Below, piece by piece: positions 682 through 43,258 of a stretch of 43,747 bases of DNA (position 1 is its first letter; every line of letters starts with the position of its first letter). Position numbers and translations under genes: made by a program. Source of the DNA: Candidatus Bathyarchaeota archaeon (GTDB lineage Archaea; Thermoproteota; Bathyarchaeia; TCS64); NCBI GenBank assembly GCA_017883585.1, contig JADGNG010000013.1, positions 1 through 43,747 on the forward strand, in the 5' to 3' direction. Below the pieces are notes generated by a model. It saw only the letters and a list, made by a program, of their open reading frames with translations, did no database searches and was not told the DNA's origin.

Positions 682-2414
682 ATGATGTGAGCGAAAACCC
701 CCCTGTACATATACTGTATCAGAAGTACGCGGAGAAGGACCCGGCCGGTGAGTACGCGACCCGCCTCTGGGGGAGGATACCCCAGAACATGGCTGAGTGC
801 AATAGCTACTTCGGCGAGATAAAGGCGAAGTACGGTGCGCCTTCCCCTGAGCTCGAGGGGCTTAAGAAGGCTGTTAAAAACCAGATGAGAGGGCTTGGGA
901 TACTTACCTCGAGGGCATCGAACAGGATCGACTCCCTTGACAAGGGGGCAGTGGAGACGGGTCAGCAGCCCAACTGCCTTGGTGGACCCAGTTTCATCTT
1001 CAACAAGATCATCTACGTCTCGACCCTCGCGGGCCTCGGGGGGTACGTTCCGCTCTACTACGTGGGTGACTACGACAGTGTCCAGGCTGAATTGATTAAC
1101 ATCCGTATCCCGAGCCCTTCAGCGAGGGGGATGCTCATCGCCTACCCCTCCCCGCCTGAGTTCGAGGGCTCACCCATACGTCGTCTTCCAAACCCCGACG
1201 AGGAGTGGCTCAGGAAGACCCTAGAGAAGATCGAGAGCAACTATCGTGGGCTCCTCAAGGGAGTGGAACCTGCGAGGCAAGATAAGGTGCTCCAGAATCT
1301 CTCCCACGTCTTCACAATAATCAAGGGCGCCTACTACTCGACAGAGAACGTCGCCGACTTCTCCACAAAGATACTCGGATCGGTCCTGAACCTCGAGGCG
1401 GACATGGGCATACCGATGCTCTCGGCCACGGACCCGGTCATCCGGGGCTTCTTCAGGCACGGCTACGAGATGCTGCTCTCAGAGCCCAATAGGAGTAGCT
1501 TCATACGCGCGTCCAACGACGCCGTCGACCTCATCGAGGGGCTCGGATACAGGGCGCAGATCGGTAAGAGGTCGATGGACTACGTCCCCTTCTTCCTGGA
1601 GTGCCAGACTCCGAGCTGCCACGGGAGCAGGGTCGAACTGAAGTATCATGCGGGCTCCGGCTCTATATCGGGTATCGAGGGGAAGTGCCCGAGGTGTGAA
1701 CAGACGTACAACTACTCGTTCTCAGCGGAGAAGCCGGACATCGAGGAGATAGCCAACATCGTAACGCCTAGGGTAGACTCCCGCCAAGTCGTTGTCGACT
1801 CGGTTATCCCCATTTTGGGGCACGTCGGCGGGCCTGGTGAGACTGGTTATTACGCTGAGGTCATACCCGGCGTCTCCCAGCTAGGGATACCCTTCCCCAC
1901 CTACACCCGTTATGCTAGGGTATTCTACAATACACCGTGGAATGAGGTCGCGGGTAGGAACCTAGAGGCGAAGGGATACACAACGCTGGCGCGGAGGGAG
2001 CTTTTCGACGCCCTCGCGTCGTGGGTTGAGGCGAAGAAGGCGACCAACGTCGAGAGCATCGCTCAGGCCCACGGTAATATCCGGAAGGTCATCGACGAGA
2101 CCTACGCTGCGTTGAGCAAGGCGAAGACGGACGCCGAGTCGGAGGTTGAAGCCATTAAGCCAAGGCTTGGTGACCCCACGACGAGGGCCGCCCTTATGCA
2201 AGAGATGAAGATGAAGCAGGCGCAGGCACAGGAGTTGGACGGATACCTATCCTACGCCTTCGGCCGCTTCGCCCCCGAGAAGTTCGGGCAGGAGGTCAGC
2301 TGGGCGTGGATAGACCTCGCCCTCGCCTCGGGGTTAGGGGAGAATGTCGAAATATATAGGCGGCTTTACGGCGGCTGGACACCGAACTCTACGTATTTTT
2401 ATGTCAACCTCTAG
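678..2414 (+). CDS. bshC: BshC-like putative cysteine ligase (bacillithiol synthesis)
   Basis: Homologue of BshC (COG4365), a class I aminoacyl-tRNA-synthetase-like enzyme that adds cysteine to GlcN-malate in the last step of bacillithiol synthesis. The most recognisable block is VGGPGETGYYAEV followed by the QLGIPFP stretch, equivalent to the GGPGE/AGPGE-YWA-QLG region of bacterial BshC. The segment QQPNCLGGPSFIFNKI near residue 100 matches the BshC N-terminal QQ-glycine loop. At 578 aa it is somewhat longer than the usual ~540. An insertion carries four cysteines (C309, C314, C337, C340) arranged like a zinc ribbon. It ends with a helical, probably coiled-coil region (about residues 455-520). 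It starts at GTG 678, overlapping the bshB stop, and its last 11 bases overlap the convergent bshA gene. Confidence 0.82.
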   Translation: MNDVSENPPVHILYQKYAEKDPAGEYATRLWGRIPQNMAECNSYFGEIKAKYGAPSPELEGLKKAVKNQMRGLGILTSRASNRIDSLDKGAVETGQQPNCLGGPSFIFNKIIYVSTLAGLGGYVPLYYVGDYDSVQAELINIRIPSPSARGMLIAYPSPPEFEGSPIRRLPNPDEEWLRKTLEKIESNYRGLLKGVEPARQDKVLQNLSHVFTIIKGAYYSTENVADFSTKILGSVLNLEADMGIPMLSATDPVIRGFFRHGYEMLLSEPNRSSFIRASNDAVDLIEGLGYRAQIGKRSMDYVPFFLECQTPSCHGSRVELKYHAGSGSISGIEGKCPRCEQTYNYSFSAEKPDIEEIANIVTPRVDSRQVVVDSVIPILGHVGGPGETGYYAEVIPGVSQLGIPFPTYTRYARVFYNTPWNEVAGRNLEAKGYTTLARRELFDALASWVEAKKATNVESIAQAHGNIRKVIDETYAALSKAKTDAESEVEAIKPRLGDPTTRAALMQEMKMKQAQAQELDGYLSYAFGRFAPEKFGQEVSWAWIDLALASGLGENVEIYRRLYGGWTPNSTYFYVNL

Positions 2415-3522
2415 GTGCTGAGACCGTCTCGAAGGTCTCGATGTATTGGTTGACAACTTTCTCCGCCGTGTATTTTTCTAGAACAGTCTTGCGTGCGTTC
2501 TCGCCTAGCTTTGTCCTCAGCATTGAGTCCCTATAAAGACGGAGTATCGCCTGGGCTAGTTTCTCCGGCTGCTTTGAGGGGACTAGTAACCCGTTACTGC
2601 CTTCGTCTATGATTTCGAGCACGCCTCCGACCTCGGTCGCCACCATTGGTAGCCCCGTGCTCATCCCTTCAAGTAGCGTCAGCGGGGCGCTTTCCGTCTC
2701 GCTGCATAGCACCCCTATATCGCTACATCGCATGAGGTTTGGGATGTCGCTCCTGAACCCAGTCAGGGTCACATTTCTGCGTAGTCCGAGGCTGTCTACC
2801 AGCTTCTCTACTCCAGGCCTGTCCGGGCCATCCCCCACGAGTGTCAATCTAGCCTTGGGTTCCTTTTTAACCACGAAAGCCATGGCTTGGACGAGGTCAG
2901 GTACCCGCTTCACAGGGCGGAAGTTACTCACGTGGATAATGCGGCCGCACTCGTCATAGTCAGCCTTAGCGGCATCGCATGGTGCTGGGGCGAAGGCCTG
3001 GGTGTCGACGAAGTTCGGTATCACCTTGACCTCACGCTCGATTCCAAGCCGCTCATACGCCTCCCTCTGTATGAACTTGGAGACCGCAGTCACGGCGTCC
3101 GCCTTCTCGATGCTATGGTTGTTGACGATCTGGTAACTTGGGTCGCTGCCGAGTATTGTGACGTCACTGCCGTGAAGGGTCACAACGTAGGGGACACCTG
3201 TTATCTCACGGGCGAGGTAAGCGGCGGTGGCGTGTGGGATCGCGTAGTGGACATTGAGGACTTCCAGCTTCTCCTGCTTCGATACCCTCGCCATCTCTGA
3301 GCCGAGCGCCACCGTGTACGGGGGATACTTGAACAGGGGATACTCGAGGACGTTGACAAGGTGGATGTGGACGTTCTCCTGGTCGATGCCCTGGACGGCG
3401 AACGGGCGCTCGTAGGTGATGAAGTGGATGTCGTGGCCCCTCTGGGCGAACTCGACGCCGAGCCTCGTGGCGAGTATTCCGCTGCCGCCGACGCCGGGGT
3501 AACAGGTTATGCCTATCCTCGT
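2404..3522 (-). CDS. bshA: BshA-like GT4 glycosyltransferase (GlcNAc-malate synthase)
   Basis: GT4 enzyme closely resembling BshA, which joins UDP-GlcNAc to L-malate. Read from 3522 it begins RIGITCYPGVGGSGILATRL, the BshA N-terminal glycine loop. It continues through HYAIPHATAAYLA, TLHGSDVTILG, HVSNFRPVKRV, LVGDGP and the catalytic E-x7-E (ESAPLTLLE) to a C-terminal amphipathic helix: about 372 aa, the family's normal size. The first canonical start in frame is GTG 3312, which would delete about 70 residues of the conserved N-terminal domain. Between that GTG and the in-frame TAG at 3535-3537 there is no ATG, GTG or TTG. ACG 3522-3520 sits directly before RIGIT, 8 nt after a GGGGG tract. A one-base indel after TTG 3526, or an ATA start at 3516, are alternatives. 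The function is firm, the start is not. Confidence 0.85.
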   Translation of the reverse strand, partial: TRIGITCYPGVGGSGILATRLGVEFAQRGHDIHFITYERPFAVQGIDQENVHIHLVNVLEYPLFKYPPYTVALGSEMARVSKQEKLEVLNVHYAIPHATAAYLAREITGVPYVVTLHGSDVTILGSDPSYQIVNNHSIEKADAVTAVSKFIQREAYERLGIEREVKVIPNFVDTQAFAPAPCDAAKADYDECGRIIHVSNFRPVKRVPDLVQAMAFVVKKEPKARLTLVGDGPDRPGVEKLVDSLGLRRNVTLTGFRSDIPNLMRCSDIGVLCSETESAPLTLLEGMSTGLPMVATEVGGVLEIIDEGSNGLLVPSKQPEKLAQAILRLYRDSMLRTKLGENARKTVLEKYTAEKVVNQYIETFETVSAPRG

Positions 3523-29376: not shown

Positions 29377-31269
29377 ATGAGCAATCCAGTCACGTTGGAT
29401 AAGCCGGGGGAGACGGTACTCCTTATGGGTAACGAGGCGATAGTCCGCGGAGCATTAGAGGCGGGCATAAGGATCGCCGCGTCATATCCCGGGACGCCGG
29501 CTTCGGAGATAGGCAACACCTTCGCCGAGGTCGCGAAGGAGATGAGCATTCACTTCGAGTGGTCGACAAACGAGAAGGTTGCCTTCGAGGTCGTCTATGG
29601 TGCCTCGATGTGCAACCAGCGGGGTATGGTGAGCATGAAGCACGTCGGCCTCAACGTGGCTCTCGACATCATGGAGATGGCGGCGCTCCGCGGCGTCAAG
29701 GGGGGACTCGTCTTCGTTTCCGCCGACGACCCGAGCCAGCACAGTAGCGGGCAAGAGCAGGACCAGCGCTGGCTCGCGAAGCAGAACTGCGTCCCAGCCC
29801 TCGAGCCAAGCGATCCCCAGGACGCGAAGGACTTCACCATCTACGCCTACGAGCTATCCGAGAAGTACCAGCTACCCGTAATGCTCCGCACGGTCACACG
29901 CGTCAGCCACATGAGGAGCAACGTCAAGCTTGGCAAGCTACAGAAGCTGGAGAGGAAGGCGGAATTCGACTTCGAGCAGTTCAGCTATGTAGTGGCTGGC
30001 TTTGACAAGCTATTCTACAGCAGGGAGAAGGAGGCGAACGAGAAGATCATGAAGATCAAAGTCGAGTTCGACACCTCGCCCCTGAACAAACTCGTGATGA
30101 CCGGGAAAGAGAGGGTAGGCGTCATCGCGACGGGACAGACCTATAACTACGTCATGGACGCCCTTGTAAAGATGGGTGCCAAGGACAAGGTCGCGGTCCT
30201 AAAGCTCGGCACCTCGAACCCTCTCCCCGAGGGGCTCATCTCCAAACTCCTCAAGGGCGTCGATAAGGTCCTCGTCACTGAGGAGCCTGACCCCTTTGTT
30301 GAGCTGCACGTCAAGGCGCTGGCGAAGGATGTGAACCCGAAGGTTGAGCTATACGGACGCATGAATGGTAAACTTCCGGGCGAGGGTGAGCTGATGCCAT
30401 TGATGGTCGACAGCGTAGTCGCCGAGATGCTCGGCGAGAAGCTTCCGCAGAATCCACGCGCCGAGGTGGAGAAGGAGTCTACGGATATGATATTCGGGAG
30501 GATGCTCACAGTCTGCGCGGGGTGCCCCCACAGGCCGAGCATCTACGCTCTCAAGCGCGCAGTAAAGGCGGTGAAGGGTGATATCCACAAGGTCGTCATA
30601 AACGGGGACATTGGCTGCTACGGCCTCGCCTGGGCGCCGCCGATGAGTTACGAGGACACTTACTTCTGCATGGGCGCGAGTCTCGGCGTCAGCCAAGGGA
30701 TGAGCCAGGTTGGAGTCGACACTATCGCATGGATCGGAGACGGCACCTTCTTCCATGCCGCTATCCCTGCCCTAATGAACGCCGTCCAGACGAAGACCAA
30801 TATCAAGGTCGTAGTCGCCGACAACAGCGTCACCGCCATGACCGGTTTCCAGCCAAACCCCCAGTCGGGGAAAACGGCAACGGGTGAGCCAACAGTCAGC
30901 GTGCCAATCGAGGCCCTCGCGAAAGCCGTCGGTGTTGAACACATCGAGGTCACAGACGCCTACGACACTAAGGCAACCGAGGCTGCGTTCAAGAGGATGC
31001 TCCTGACCGAGGGGGTCGCCATGGTCATCAGCAGGCGCGTCTGCGCCACCGAGGCTATCCGTCGGATGAGGCCGAAGCGCCCCGTCCCTTACGAGGTTGA
31101 CGAGTCGAAGTGCGTCGGCTGCAAATTATGCCTCAGCACCTTCGGTTGCCCCGGACTCAGCTTCGATGAGGAGAAAAAGAAGGCGAGCATCGACCCGATT
31201 ATCTGCATGGGCTGCGGCGTCTGCGCGCAGGTGTGCAATGTCGGTTGTATCCACGGGAGGAACGAGTGA
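29377..31269 (+). CDS. iorA: indolepyruvate ferredoxin oxidoreductase alpha subunit
   Basis: Oxidatively decarboxylates aryl pyruvates from Trp, Phe and Tyr to acyl-CoA with ferredoxin reduction, a hallmark of archaeal peptide fermentation. The 630-aa protein has an N-terminal pyrimidine-binding domain (SYPGTPASEIGNTFAEVA). The TPP-binding domain includes CAGCPHRPS, GDIGCYGLAWAPP and the GDG...N TPP motif (WIGDGTFFHAAIPALMNA to ADNS). Two C-terminal 4Fe-4S motifs follow (CVGCKLCLSTFGCP and CMGCGVCAQVCNVGC). ATG 29377; the stop overlaps iorB (TGATG). Confidence 0.97.
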   Translation: MSNPVTLDKPGETVLLMGNEAIVRGALEAGIRIAASYPGTPASEIGNTFAEVAKEMSIHFEWSTNEKVAFEVVYGASMCNQRGMVSMKHVGLNVALDIMEMAALRGVKGGLVFVSADDPSQHSSGQEQDQRWLAKQNCVPALEPSDPQDAKDFTIYAYELSEKYQLPVMLRTVTRVSHMRSNVKLGKLQKLERKAEFDFEQFSYVVAGFDKLFYSREKEANEKIMKIKVEFDTSPLNKLVMTGKERVGVIATGQTYNYVMDALVKMGAKDKVAVLKLGTSNPLPEGLISKLLKGVDKVLVTEEPDPFVELHVKALAKDVNPKVELYGRMNGKLPGEGELMPLMVDSVVAEMLGEKLPQNPRAEVEKESTDMIFGRMLTVCAGCPHRPSIYALKRAVKAVKGDIHKVVINGDIGCYGLAWAPPMSYEDTYFCMGASLGVSQGMSQVGVDTIAWIGDGTFFHAAIPALMNAVQTKTNIKVVVADNSVTAMTGFQPNPQSGKTATGEPTVSVPIEALAKAVGVEHIEVTDAYDTKATEAAFKRMLLTEGVAMVISRRVCATEAIRRMRPKRPVPYEVDESKCVGCKLCLSTFGCPGLSFDEEKKKASIDPIICMGCGVCAQVCNVGCIHGRNE

Positions 31270-39642: not shown

Positions 39643-40551
39643 TCAGTGCGCGAGAATTGGGAGGATTTCGTCCAGAGATAATCTGGTTACGCTTATCACT
39701 GTATCAGCCGCCCCATAGGAAATCAAGACATCATTTCCACGACGAACTGCACCACAGCTAAAAACTACATTTGGAATAAACCCATTACATTCGTAATCTG
39801 CCTGAGGCTCAAAAATCGGTTTCTTAGACCGATATAATATTTTTTCAGGGTCATCCTTCTGAAGCAGTAAAGCACCTAATCTGTAAACACGGTTATAATC
39901 TACTCCATGGTAGATCTGAAGCCAGCCCTCATCGAGGAGAATTGGAGGTCCCGCTATTCCAACTCTTACACAATCCCAACTGTCTTCACGCGGAGTCATG
40001 ACGATCCTCGAATCATTCCAGCTAAGCATGTCATCCGAGTATGCGACGCATAGATTCGGATCGATTCTATGAAACATAACAAACCTGCTCTTCAACTTAA
40101 CGGGGAACAACGCGCTATTTTTATTCGTGACATCAGGGAATGGATATGTCCTGTCGGCCCAATTCCAATTGTTTTCCAACAGATCTTTTCCTTTAATTGA
40201 GGTAATCCCGATCTGTGACGTTATTGCGTATGCTGTGTATGTCATGTAACATCGGTCTCCTATCACAGTTACTCTGGGGTCTTCTACCCCGCGGACTTCT
40301 AAGGGATTTTTTGGTTCGAAAACTGGGTGATCAATTCTTTCATCAATGTGTTGACCATCAAGAGAAGACGCGTAACCTAGTCGGGAGATCATCTCGTCCC
40401 CCATTGCTCTATAAATGTAATGAACTCTCCCTTCTAGCTCGAACATGGCGGGGTTAAATACGAGTTTAGACTCCCACCCGTGTTCAGGTATGGGTTTCAG
40501 TATAGGATTACCCTCGAAGCGGTTCATCCTCTCATTCACCATAAGCGACAC
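39643..40551 (-). CDS. GH130 glycoside phosphorylase/hydrolase, mannose-type candidate
   Basis: 302-aa five-bladed propeller enzyme of family GH130, whose members phosphorolyse or hydrolyse beta-1,2- or beta-1,4-mannosides. Recognisable blocks are NRFEGNPILKP, FNPAMFELEGRVHYIYRA, RGVEDPRVTVIGDRCYMTYTA (with the catalytic-region Asp), FVMFHRIDPNLCVAYSDDML, IGIAGPPILLDEGWLQIYHGVD-like and YGAADTVISVTRL. GTG 40551. It is the last gene of an AT-rich operon with an alpha/alpha-toroid protein and a CBS-GT4. Phosphorylase versus hydrolase and the linkage cannot be decided from sequence alone. Confidence 0.88.
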   Translation of the reverse strand: MSLMVNERMNRFEGNPILKPIPEHGWESKLVFNPAMFELEGRVHYIYRAMGDEMISRLGYASSLDGQHIDERIDHPVFEPKNPLEVRGVEDPRVTVIGDRCYMTYTAYAITSQIGITSIKGKDLLENNWNWADRTYPFPDVTNKNSALFPVKLKSRFVMFHRIDPNLCVAYSDDMLSWNDSRIVMTPREDSWDCVRVGIAGPPILLDEGWLQIYHGVDYNRVYRLGALLLQKDDPEKILYRSKKPIFEPQADYECNGFIPNVVFSCGAVRRGNDVLISYGAADTVISVTRLSLDEILPILAH

Positions 40552-40617: not shown

Positions 40618-41649
40618 TTATAACGTTAAGATTGGTAGTGATAACTCTGCTAATAGGTACGAGATCAACGATTCTGCACCTTTATTTTGATTTACACCTG
40701 TAGGTGTCAATCCATCATAGCATGTGTAGTTACTTGTGTCGATCAGGGATTGTTGGACCGTGTTTTTTCCTTGAAACCATTGGAATGCTTCGTATCCTCT
40801 CTGCTTGTATGTTTCATCTGCTAAGATCTCTGCAGCTTTAAAGGCGGCTTCAGTCATGCATGCGGATTCAATGGGTTGCTGATCGTAAAGCGCCTTTTTC
40901 TTTCCTTTGTGGTACCATCCTTCGGTGCCTATTGGAATGAAGATTCCATTACTAAACTGTGATTCGATTAAGAAGTCGAAGGACTTCTTTGCAATGCTAA
41001 GGTAATTTGTGTTCTTCACGATTTCGTAGGATTCGAAGAGTGCCTGTGGTATCCTAGCGTTTGCGTATGTTACATATGGTTCGAACCATTGCCATTCTGG
41101 TTCTTCTGTATCCAAGTATTTCTGGATCAGAAAATCCGAAAAGTCGATGATGTCTCTGATTAAATTTTCGTCTTTGGGATAGGCCCTCGAGTAGCCACAT
41201 AAACCGAGGAGGGTGAAGGCTTTTGCCCTAGGTGAGGTGAAGCTTCGCGTGAGGGGCAGGTTTTCATCAAATAGCCACTTAGACAGCTGTTTCAAGTACA
41301 GGGGGATGGTTGAATTGAGTGTACATCCCGTTGCCCATAGGGCCTGACCGATGCTGTCTTCGGTTCCATTCTTATCTAGGTATTTTCTGTCGTAGCTAAT
41401 TACGTTGTGAAAGCCTCCTCCATTGATGTTCATAAAGAGGAGAAACTCGAGGTATCTCTTCGCCAAGTGAATGGGCTCATCTCCCCCAAACCGACTATGG
41501 AAACGTACAGCTGCCAGTAGAGCCCTAGAATTGTCATCTGTAGTATACCCGTGTCGTTTATCGATTACACCAAACTTCGAGTGCTGCAGAATTCCTGTTT
41601 CATCGGTGAAGAGACTTAGGCCGCTGAGCCCACTCTTTTTGTTTGGCAT
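40618..41649 (-). CDS. alpha/alpha-toroid (six-hairpin-like) protein of GH130/GT4 loci
   Basis: 343-aa helical protein with repeated helix-hairpin pattern. An opening TDETGILQHSKFGVIDKRHGYTTDDNSRAL contains a DDN acidic motif, then FLLFMNINGGGFHNVISYDRKY, EDSIGQALWATGC, PQALFESYEIV and PIESACMTEAAFKAAEILADETY. Such toroid proteins occur beside GT4 and GH130 genes, sometimes fused to the GT; they may bind or process the oligosaccharide. It starts 5 bases after the GT4 stop and leads to GH130. No defined enzymatic function is known to me. Confidence 0.65.
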   Translation of the reverse strand: MPNKKSGLSGLSLFTDETGILQHSKFGVIDKRHGYTTDDNSRALLAAVRFHSRFGGDEPIHLAKRYLEFLLFMNINGGGFHNVISYDRKYLDKNGTEDSIGQALWATGCTLNSTIPLYLKQLSKWLFDENLPLTRSFTSPRAKAFTLLGLCGYSRAYPKDENLIRDIIDFSDFLIQKYLDTEEPEWQWFEPYVTYANARIPQALFESYEIVKNTNYLSIAKKSFDFLIESQFSNGIFIPIGTEGWYHKGKKKALYDQQPIESACMTEAAFKAAEILADETYKQRGYEAFQWFQGKNTVQQSLIDTSNYTCYDGLTPTGVNQNKGAESLISYLLAELSLPILTL

Positions 41650-41653
41650 CGTG

Positions 41654-43258
41654 TCACAACCCTAGGTCCTTGTAGAATTCGTTGATGTACTTCATTGAAA
41701 TGGTTGGCCATATCAGGTCGCGACTATAGTCATATGCTCTCTTCTCGTATTTTTTTCTCATCTCTTCATCTTTAATGAAGGCGTTTACATTTTCAGCGAT
41801 TGAGTGCGGATCTTTAAACTCGCATTGTAGAGCAGCGCCCTGATCTATGACCTCCTCCGCGTGAAGGAATGGAGTTGTTATTATTGCTTTTCCGGTACAG
41901 AGTGCATGGAGCATGGTCCCACTGCTTATTTGATCCCTATTCGGGTAGGGGAGAACGTAGGTATCTGTTGCCTGAAGGAATCTAATTAGATCGCTTTTAT
42001 TTAAGAATCGGTTAACGAATCGGACGTTTTCAACGACTCCGAGAGAATTCACAATGTCATATAGGGATTGCCGATAGGATTCCCCCTCTTGTTTCCTGAC
42101 GTCGGGATGCGTTTCTCCAATGATAATATAAAGTACCCGTGGTTCAACGGAGATTATCTCAGGTAGGGATCTGATTGCATATTCTATCCCTTTTCCCCTG
42201 CTTATGAGGCCGAAGGTGGATATTACGTATCTATCCTTAAGGCCTAAATCCCCTTTTGGTATTTCACTCTTTATAAATGGAACATTTGGGCAACCATGTG
42301 GAATGTATCTTATCTTATCTGGTGCACAATTGTAGCGCTCCTCAAGTATCTTAAATCCCGCCTTAGCTAAGATGATGATTCTGTCACTAAGCCTAATGAT
42401 CTCTTGTAGAACCCTCGCTGCGTCAATGTTGGGATCGGGAAGGATAGTGTGGAGAGTGGTTACGATTGGCTTTTCTAGCTCCTCTAAAAAGGATAGAAGA
42501 TAATCACCCCAGTTCCCGCCAAACAATCCGTATTCGTGTTGAATATTTACGGCGCTAATGCCCGAGTTGTTAATTTTTGATGCTACGGATTTGTAGCTCT
42601 GTTTGTCGTCCTTTTCTATTTGGAACTTCACTTCACTGGGATAATCATAGTATTCTCCTTTATCATTGATAGCGATAATAACGGATGGAGATAGAGCCGC
42701 TTGATGGTTAATGGAGTCGACTAAATCAGATGTGAAGGTCGCTATACCACATTCGCGTGGAGGATAAGTACTAAGATAGGCGATAACCGGCTTGTTGGAT
42801 GTGAAATACGTGATTTCAGTATCTCTGCTTTTGGCTCTGTCCACATATGTGTTATGAGCTATGTTTAGTAAATTTTTCTCAGTTGTTAAGCCTATGAGTT
42901 TTCCTTTCTCTGTTACGCCTAGACTCCGGATATTTCTCTCCTTTAATAGATCTATAGCTTCCTTTATTGAACTCTTAGATTCTATTGAGATTAATGGAGA
43001 GGACATTATTTCTTCGACACGGGTATCATCAAGGCTTTTCTCAAGTTTTAGAACTCTTTCAACTATATCACTTTCGGTAACTATACCCACAGGACCCAGG
43101 TTATCTGTTACGACTGCCGAGCCCAAGTCATATGCAACTAAAAGATCAATCAACTTTGAGACTTTTTCGGTTCTGGAAATCTTTGGTGGCTCTAAATAGG
43201 TGCTGGTTAAGACCGGTAAATCTAATAGAATTTTAAAATATGAATTAGTATCTTCCAC
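41654..43258 (-). CDS. glycosyltransferase family 4 with N-terminal tandem CBS domains
   Basis: 534-aa fusion. Two CBS domains (about 20-70: SAVVTDNLGPVGIVTESDIVER; about 84-135: SIKEAIDLLKERNIRSLGV...GLTTEKNLL) precede a complete GT-B glycosyltransferase from about 157. The GT part has YLSTYPPRECGIATFTSDLV, VNIQHEYGLFGGNWGDYL, IPHGCPNVPF, TFGLISRGKGIEYAI and PYPNRDQISSGTMLHALCTGKAIITTPF. CBS pairs normally bind AMP, ATP or S-adenosyl compounds, so the transferase is probably allosterically gated by an adenosine ligand. GTG 43258, about 26 bp after a TATA element, implies a leaderless mRNA. Donor and acceptor are unknown; the GH130 partner suggests mannose. Confidence 0.85.
   Translation of the reverse strand: MEDTNSYFKILLDLPVLTSTYLEPPKISRTEKVSKLIDLLVAYDLGSAVVTDNLGPVGIVTESDIVERVLKLEKSLDDTRVEEIMSSPLISIESKSSIKEAIDLLKERNIRSLGVTEKGKLIGLTTEKNLLNIAHNTYVDRAKSRDTEITYFTSNKPVIAYLSTYPPRECGIATFTSDLVDSINHQAALSPSVIIAINDKGEYYDYPSEVKFQIEKDDKQSYKSVASKINNSGISAVNIQHEYGLFGGNWGDYLLSFLEELEKPIVTTLHTILPDPNIDAARVLQEIIRLSDRIIILAKAGFKILEERYNCAPDKIRYIPHGCPNVPFIKSEIPKGDLGLKDRYVISTFGLISRGKGIEYAIRSLPEIISVEPRVLYIIIGETHPDVRKQEGESYRQSLYDIVNSLGVVENVRFVNRFLNKSDLIRFLQATDTYVLPYPNRDQISSGTMLHALCTGKAIITTPFLHAEEVIDQGAALQCEFKDPHSIAENVNAFIKDEEMRKKYEKRAYDYSRDLIWPTISMKYINEFYKDLGL

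Follow-up and report, generated by a model that had tools for sequence, protein, structure and literature searches.

A CBS-domain pair fused to a GT4-like glycosyltransferase beside a GH130 gene in Bathyarchaeia

The stretch of DNA analysed here (the window) comprises 43,747 nucleotides of contig JADGNG010000013.1 from a Candidatus Bathyarchaeota archaeon, a draft metagenome assembly with 84.65% completeness and 5.86% contamination. A gene on the minus strand (41654..43258) encodes a 534-aa protein with a GTG start, in which two tandem CBS domains precede a glycosyltransferase (GT) domain. The initial annotation had placed a CBS pair and a GT4 enzyme in a single frame at these positions, and the single open reading frame, the Pfam domains and conserved relatives all agree with it, the gene being on the minus strand. 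The reading frame runs from 43258 to 41654 with 534 codons, and the open frame that contains it is only 2 codons longer (536); the translation of the plus strand across the same interval is full of stops. A stop codon or frameshift between the CBS and GT domains had been named as a finding that would overturn the fusion, and neither was found. The same architecture was observed in full-length relatives that are 51-64% identical to the window's protein.

Pfam matched the N-terminal part of the protein to CBS (PF00571, E=6.5e-18) in two stretches in tandem, the arrangement of a CBS pair (Bateman module). The pair covers about residues 20-137 (42860..43192, minus strand; CBS1 at 43049-43192 and CBS2 at 42860-43018), in good agreement with the residues 20-135 originally given. 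A linker of residues 138-156 (42791..42847, minus strand) connects it to a GT4-type GT-B glycosyltransferase domain at residues 157-534 (41657..42790, minus strand), which was matched by Glycos_transf_1 (PF00534) above the cut-off (E=3.2e-15), while the N-terminal Glyco_transf_4 domain scored 25.3 bits, below the 28.5 cut-off. A structure prediction of the domain interface had been called for, and an AlphaFold2 model of the fusion built on 57 aligned sequences supplied part of the answer. The mean pLDDT was 90.7, with values below 50 only at residues 1-5 and 145-153, the latter within the linker. The domains are thus each well folded in the model, but the pTM of 0.70 leaves the placement of the CBS pair relative to the GT loose.

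The ribose motif of CBS pairs, which contacts ribose and phosphate, was taken as G-h-x-(T/S)-x-x-(D/N). In the fusion, a motif of this type is GIVTESD at residues 58-64 of CBS1 (43067..43087, minus strand), where G58, I59, T61, E62 and D64 are invariant among nine aligned fusions and the motif is complete in all nine. The corresponding CBS2 motif is GLTTEKN at residues 123-129 (42872..42892, minus strand); here GLTTE is invariant in the nine fusions and is followed by R or K and then by R or N, so that the final acidic residue is absent, the last position being N in the window's fusion and R in the remaining ones. The fused CBS pair weakly matched IMP dehydrogenase and AcuB chains (the latter being 9s4w), and according to the title of a 2026 paper AcuB senses the energy charge of the cell (PMC13121692). 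The fused pair would be an allosteric sensor, probably of adenine nucleotides. Energy charge may control the glycosyltransferase, although the canonical ribose motif is complete in CBS1 only.

The GT domain had been described as an intact GT4, a description that holds for its fold and fails for its active site. A search with the AlphaFold2 model using Foldseek returned PimB' (3oka), MshA (3c48) and PimA (2gej) as the best PDB matches, indicating a GT-B fold, and the trehalose-forming and lipid-mannosylating GT-B enzymes TreT (2x6q), OtsA, PimA and PimB' were among the close matches. Alignment within the family and to MshA located the EX7E position of GT4 at Q443...H451 (41906..41932, minus strand), where most relatives carry Y in place of the histidine. 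Q443 was present in 57 of 57 sequences and Y or H at position 451 in 53 of them, meaning that both EX7E glutamates are replaced throughout the family. Shared with the GT4 enzymes MshA, PimA and PimB' are the KG lysine (K356), which is invariant, and the TTLHT histidine (H270), which is found in 56 of 57 sequences. The fusion also differs from those enzymes in its added N-terminal CBS pair and in the N-terminal Pfam domain that falls below the cut-off. Because EX7E is replaced, we refer to the domain as GT4-like and not as a canonical GT4, and its chemistry may differ from that of an ordinary GT4 enzyme, given the missing glutamates.

Two genes follow on the same strand. Gene X (40618..41649) starts 4 bases past the end of the fusion and encodes a 343-aa alpha/alpha-barrel protein with conserved residues D16, D38, D39, W186, W188, E190, Q257, Q258, D312 and E326. 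Its fold resembles 7tem, cellobiose 2-epimerases (AGE-type) and GH76 at 9-19% identity, and no Pfam family matched it over the curated cut-off, with scattered weak matches among its relatives; assignment to GH76, to the AGE epimerases or to another named alpha/alpha-barrel family was accordingly rejected. In 19 of the 66 loci L035-L100, GT and X form one polypeptide. Such single GT-X proteins, of about 670-790 aa, occur in many bacteria and DPANN archaea (L050, L054, L056, L076-L079, L083-L087, L089, L090, L092, L095, L096, L099 and L100). In one fused locus (L148:7479-8570, genome G089), X lies on the strand opposite to the fusion and GH130, unlike in the other fused loci.

The next gene (39643..40551, minus strand), 66 bases after X, encodes a GH130 protein (PF04041, 205 bits versus a cut-off of 26) whose nearest relatives are beta-1,2-mannobiose and 1,2-beta-oligomannan phosphorylases. 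It scored 317.5 bits against the beta-1,2-mannobiose phosphorylase model NF052550, under that model's curated equivalog cut-off of 450, and 84 bits against the beta-1,2-mannosidase model versus 317 against the phosphorylase model; its best solved relatives are 7fip and 9fj8. The relatives begin about 8 residues later, and the true start may lie downstream of the annotated GTG. In the Bathyarchaeia loci L165, L167, L169-L172, L174, L175 and L177, a further GH130 gene lies beyond the GT, so that GT-X-CBS has GH130 on both flanks.

The GT was present in 56 of the 257 Bathyarchaeia genomes searched, and ten of the 257 carry the CBS-GT fusion (frames of more than 450 aa with CBS ahead of GT). These ten belong to three families: six to the window's own family (one of them cut by a contig end), three to a second and one to a third. 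Among the matches listed in a phylum sample of 398 genomes, only the window's own spans the CBS part, the rest beginning at a query residue of at least 137. A species-wide scan found CBS-GT fusions in Bathyarchaeota records only; the scan covers the best 80 of 575 GT relatives, and more distant GTs could still hold fusions. In the GT tree the ten fused GTs formed one clade (SH-aLRT 100, by a quick method that has no bootstrap), consistent with a single fusion. In the X and GH130 trees, the fused loci did not form one group and 2 changes were needed; these two genes may have partly separate histories, with exchange between loci.

The dN/dS ratios of the CBS part and the GT were 0.14 and 0.10 in the pair L114/L115 and 0.11 and 0.17 in the pair L147/L148; in more distant pairs, synonymous sites were at or near saturation. 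By these ratios the CBS part of the fusion is under purifying selection. The linker gave about 1.1 and 0.45 in the same two pairs, dN being close to dS in L114/L115, but its 19 codons are too few for these values to weigh much.

Neighbourhoods were annotated with purpose-built profiles for 47 GT loci, 37 unfused and ten fused. X and GH130 were present in 33 of the 37 unfused loci, 30 of which also carried a separate CBS gene, and where all four genes were mapped the order was mostly GT-X-CBS-GH130. A separate CBS gene was found in none of the ten fused loci; X and GH130 were both visible in six of these, the remainder being short contig pieces. No CBS gene was nearby in L166, L173 and L176, which are unfused and have X and GH130, so control by CBS is not universal. 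Four loci elsewhere in the phylum had GT and X with no match to CBS or GH130, and among loci L035-L100 a CBS was seen on three, namely two of Bathyarchaeota and L035. The latter (L035:5962-9608), on a contig labelled Asgard group archaeon, has the Bathyarchaeia-type order GT-X-CBS-GH130, which reflects either transfer or a binning error.

One could envisage that the fused CBS pair is the CBS protein of the cluster moved by fusion. The CBS tree and a genome-wide search ruled this out. In a tree built from 55 CBS pairs, the nine complete pairs from fusions grouped together (96/92), with a free-standing CBS protein from the same family (L107) as nearest neighbour, and 31 cluster CBS proteins formed a separate group (100/99). 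The tree was rooted at the midpoint and has some long branches, but other CBS proteins lie between the two groups, so that their separation does not depend on the rooting alone. In a genome-wide search, the cluster-type CBS scored 206-208 bits in two unfused genomes and no more than 84 bits in any of the ten that have the fusion. Since the fused pairs and the cluster CBS proteins form two groups and the cluster type is missing from the fused genomes, an unrelated CBS pair has taken the place of the separate one. L107 was considered as a decayed fusion and rejected, as no GT remnant was found. As judged from the sequences, the fused and separate CBS pairs are mutually exclusive and of separate ancestry, the fusion is conserved and has a single origin, and two different CBS lineages are tied to the same enzymes. 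The proposal that the GT is regulated through its CBS pair is strengthened by the unrelated CBS protein that stands in the relatives' cluster and is missing where the GT is fused; control by energy charge in particular stays putative.

Our joint reading, to which we assign a probability of about 0.5, is that a glycosyltransferase with a built-in nucleotide sensor works with X and GH130 in a mannose-type glycan cycle. The N-terminal CBS pair would bind an adenine nucleotide via the complete CBS1 motif, and the flexible linker would pass the effect of binding on to the GT4-type transferase, changing its activity. GT and X would assemble or modify a mannose-containing glycan or oligosaccharide inside the cell; that the two work together is suggested by the many bacteria and DPANN archaea in which they are a single polypeptide. 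The adjacent GH130 would recover alpha-mannose-1-phosphate from the glycan, and storage or release would be coupled through the CBS pair to the nucleotide state. In most cluster-bearing Bathyarchaeia this task would fall to an unrelated CBS protein acting in trans from its own gene, whose place was taken in one lineage by a different CBS pair joined to the GT. In this scheme the ligand, the allostery, the mannose chemistry, the storage role, the direction of control and the glycan are all things we infer.

The synthesis of a reserve glycan, which the initial annotation had proposed, gains some support from the adjacent GH130 and sits less easily with the expected linkages. A retaining GT4 would be expected to form alpha linkages, whereas GH130 enzymes act on beta-mannosides and are inverting, so GH130 cannot simply reverse the reaction of the GT; its target may be a linkage formed by another enzyme, or the GT may be no usual GT4. 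GT5 (PF08323) had no match in the window's genome, which is incomplete, or in G083, G088, G089 and G091, and other genomes gave weak or stronger matches; its absence from an incomplete genome hints only faintly at an alternative reserve. On another contig of the source genome, two nucleotidyltransferase-like genes lie beside a phosphohexomutase-like gene, an arrangement that would fit sugar-nucleotide supply. A more far-reaching version, which we consider doubtful, is that a widespread GT-X-GH130 pathway with an unusual GT active site makes an archaeal mannan-like reserve, and that in Bathyarchaeia it is switched by energy charge via CBS modules recruited twice, in trans and by fusion.

Among CBS pairs, binding of ligands other than adenine nucleotides also occurs, as does a response to ionic strength, which is known for the transporter OpuA, and one could therefore suppose that the fused pair senses ionic strength or a non-adenylate ligand and that the cluster makes a compatible solute or a surface glycan and not a reserve. 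The missing acidic residue in CBS2 would be compatible with a non-adenylate ligand, and TreT, OtsA, PimA and PimB' among the fold matches with a solute or surface glycan; the CBS1 motif, complete in the nine aligned fusions, speaks for an adenylate, however, and a phosphorylase-like GH130 alongside better suits the turnover of an internal glycan. We regard this alternative as on the unlikely side. It is improbable, in our view, that the pair serves chiefly for dimerisation or docking, holding GT, X and GH130 together and sensing little or nothing. CBS pairs do dimerise, the pair has given way to an unrelated one, an exchange that a scaffold could tolerate, and the linker appears free to drift, but a pure scaffold would have no need of the nucleotide-type CBS1 motif and the GLTTE of CBS2 that are invariant in the fusions.

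The draft state and the contamination of the source metagenome assembly could raise the suspicion of an assembly artefact, or of a chance fusion devoid of functional meaning. Such an origin is highly improbable, given ten genomes with the same fusion, the single GT clade and the selection on the CBS part; the relatives largely refute it, and full-length relatives, the ten fused genomes and the dN/dS ratios rule out an artefact of annotation. If a GT4-like transferase were indeed under direct nucleotide control, energy state and glycan making would be connected in a new way in Bathyarchaeia, which are abundant sediment archaea that are hard to grow. The exchange between separate and fused unrelated CBS pairs amounts to a natural experiment through which the regulatory role can be tested, and it draws attention to an uncharacterised GT-X-GH130 module in bacteria and archaea.

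The arrangement had been called unfamiliar among characterised GT4 enzymes, and no published CBS-GT4 fusion and nothing relevant on the GT-X-CBS-GH130 cluster was found in open-licence papers; glycosyltransferases, but not CBS, come up in a paper on archaeal fusions. In IMP dehydrogenase, CBS pyrophosphatase and AcuB a CBS pair likewise serves a metabolic enzyme, either as part of it or by acting upon it, but in the fusion that enzyme is a glycosyltransferase. In the Thermoanaerobacter cluster Teth514_1786-1789, a GT4-family transferase adjoins two GH130 beta-1,2-mannoside phosphorylases; an ABC transporter and a mannose-1-phosphate guanylyltransferase are also reported there, and a role in GDP-mannose salvage was proposed (PMC4264767). 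The Bathyarchaeia cluster likewise has a GT, here GT4-like, beside GH130, and instead of the other genes it has X and a putative CBS sensor. Leishmania mannogen, a reserve of beta-1,2-mannan on which GH130-like propeller enzymes act, the GT108 transferase-phosphorylases (PMC8950772), is a possible parallel for such a reserve, which is putative in Bathyarchaeia, where no GT108 is shown.

Elsewhere in the window, positions 2404-3312 (minus strand) encode a 302-aa GT4-type protein whose N-terminal Pfam match starts at profile position 62 of 170, and which may be N-terminally short. Positions 29377-31269 (plus strand) encode a 630-aa protein with POR_N and TPP_enzyme_C in one frame; a fusion of pyruvate oxidoreductase subunits has been reported for Bathyarchaeota (PMC11237513).
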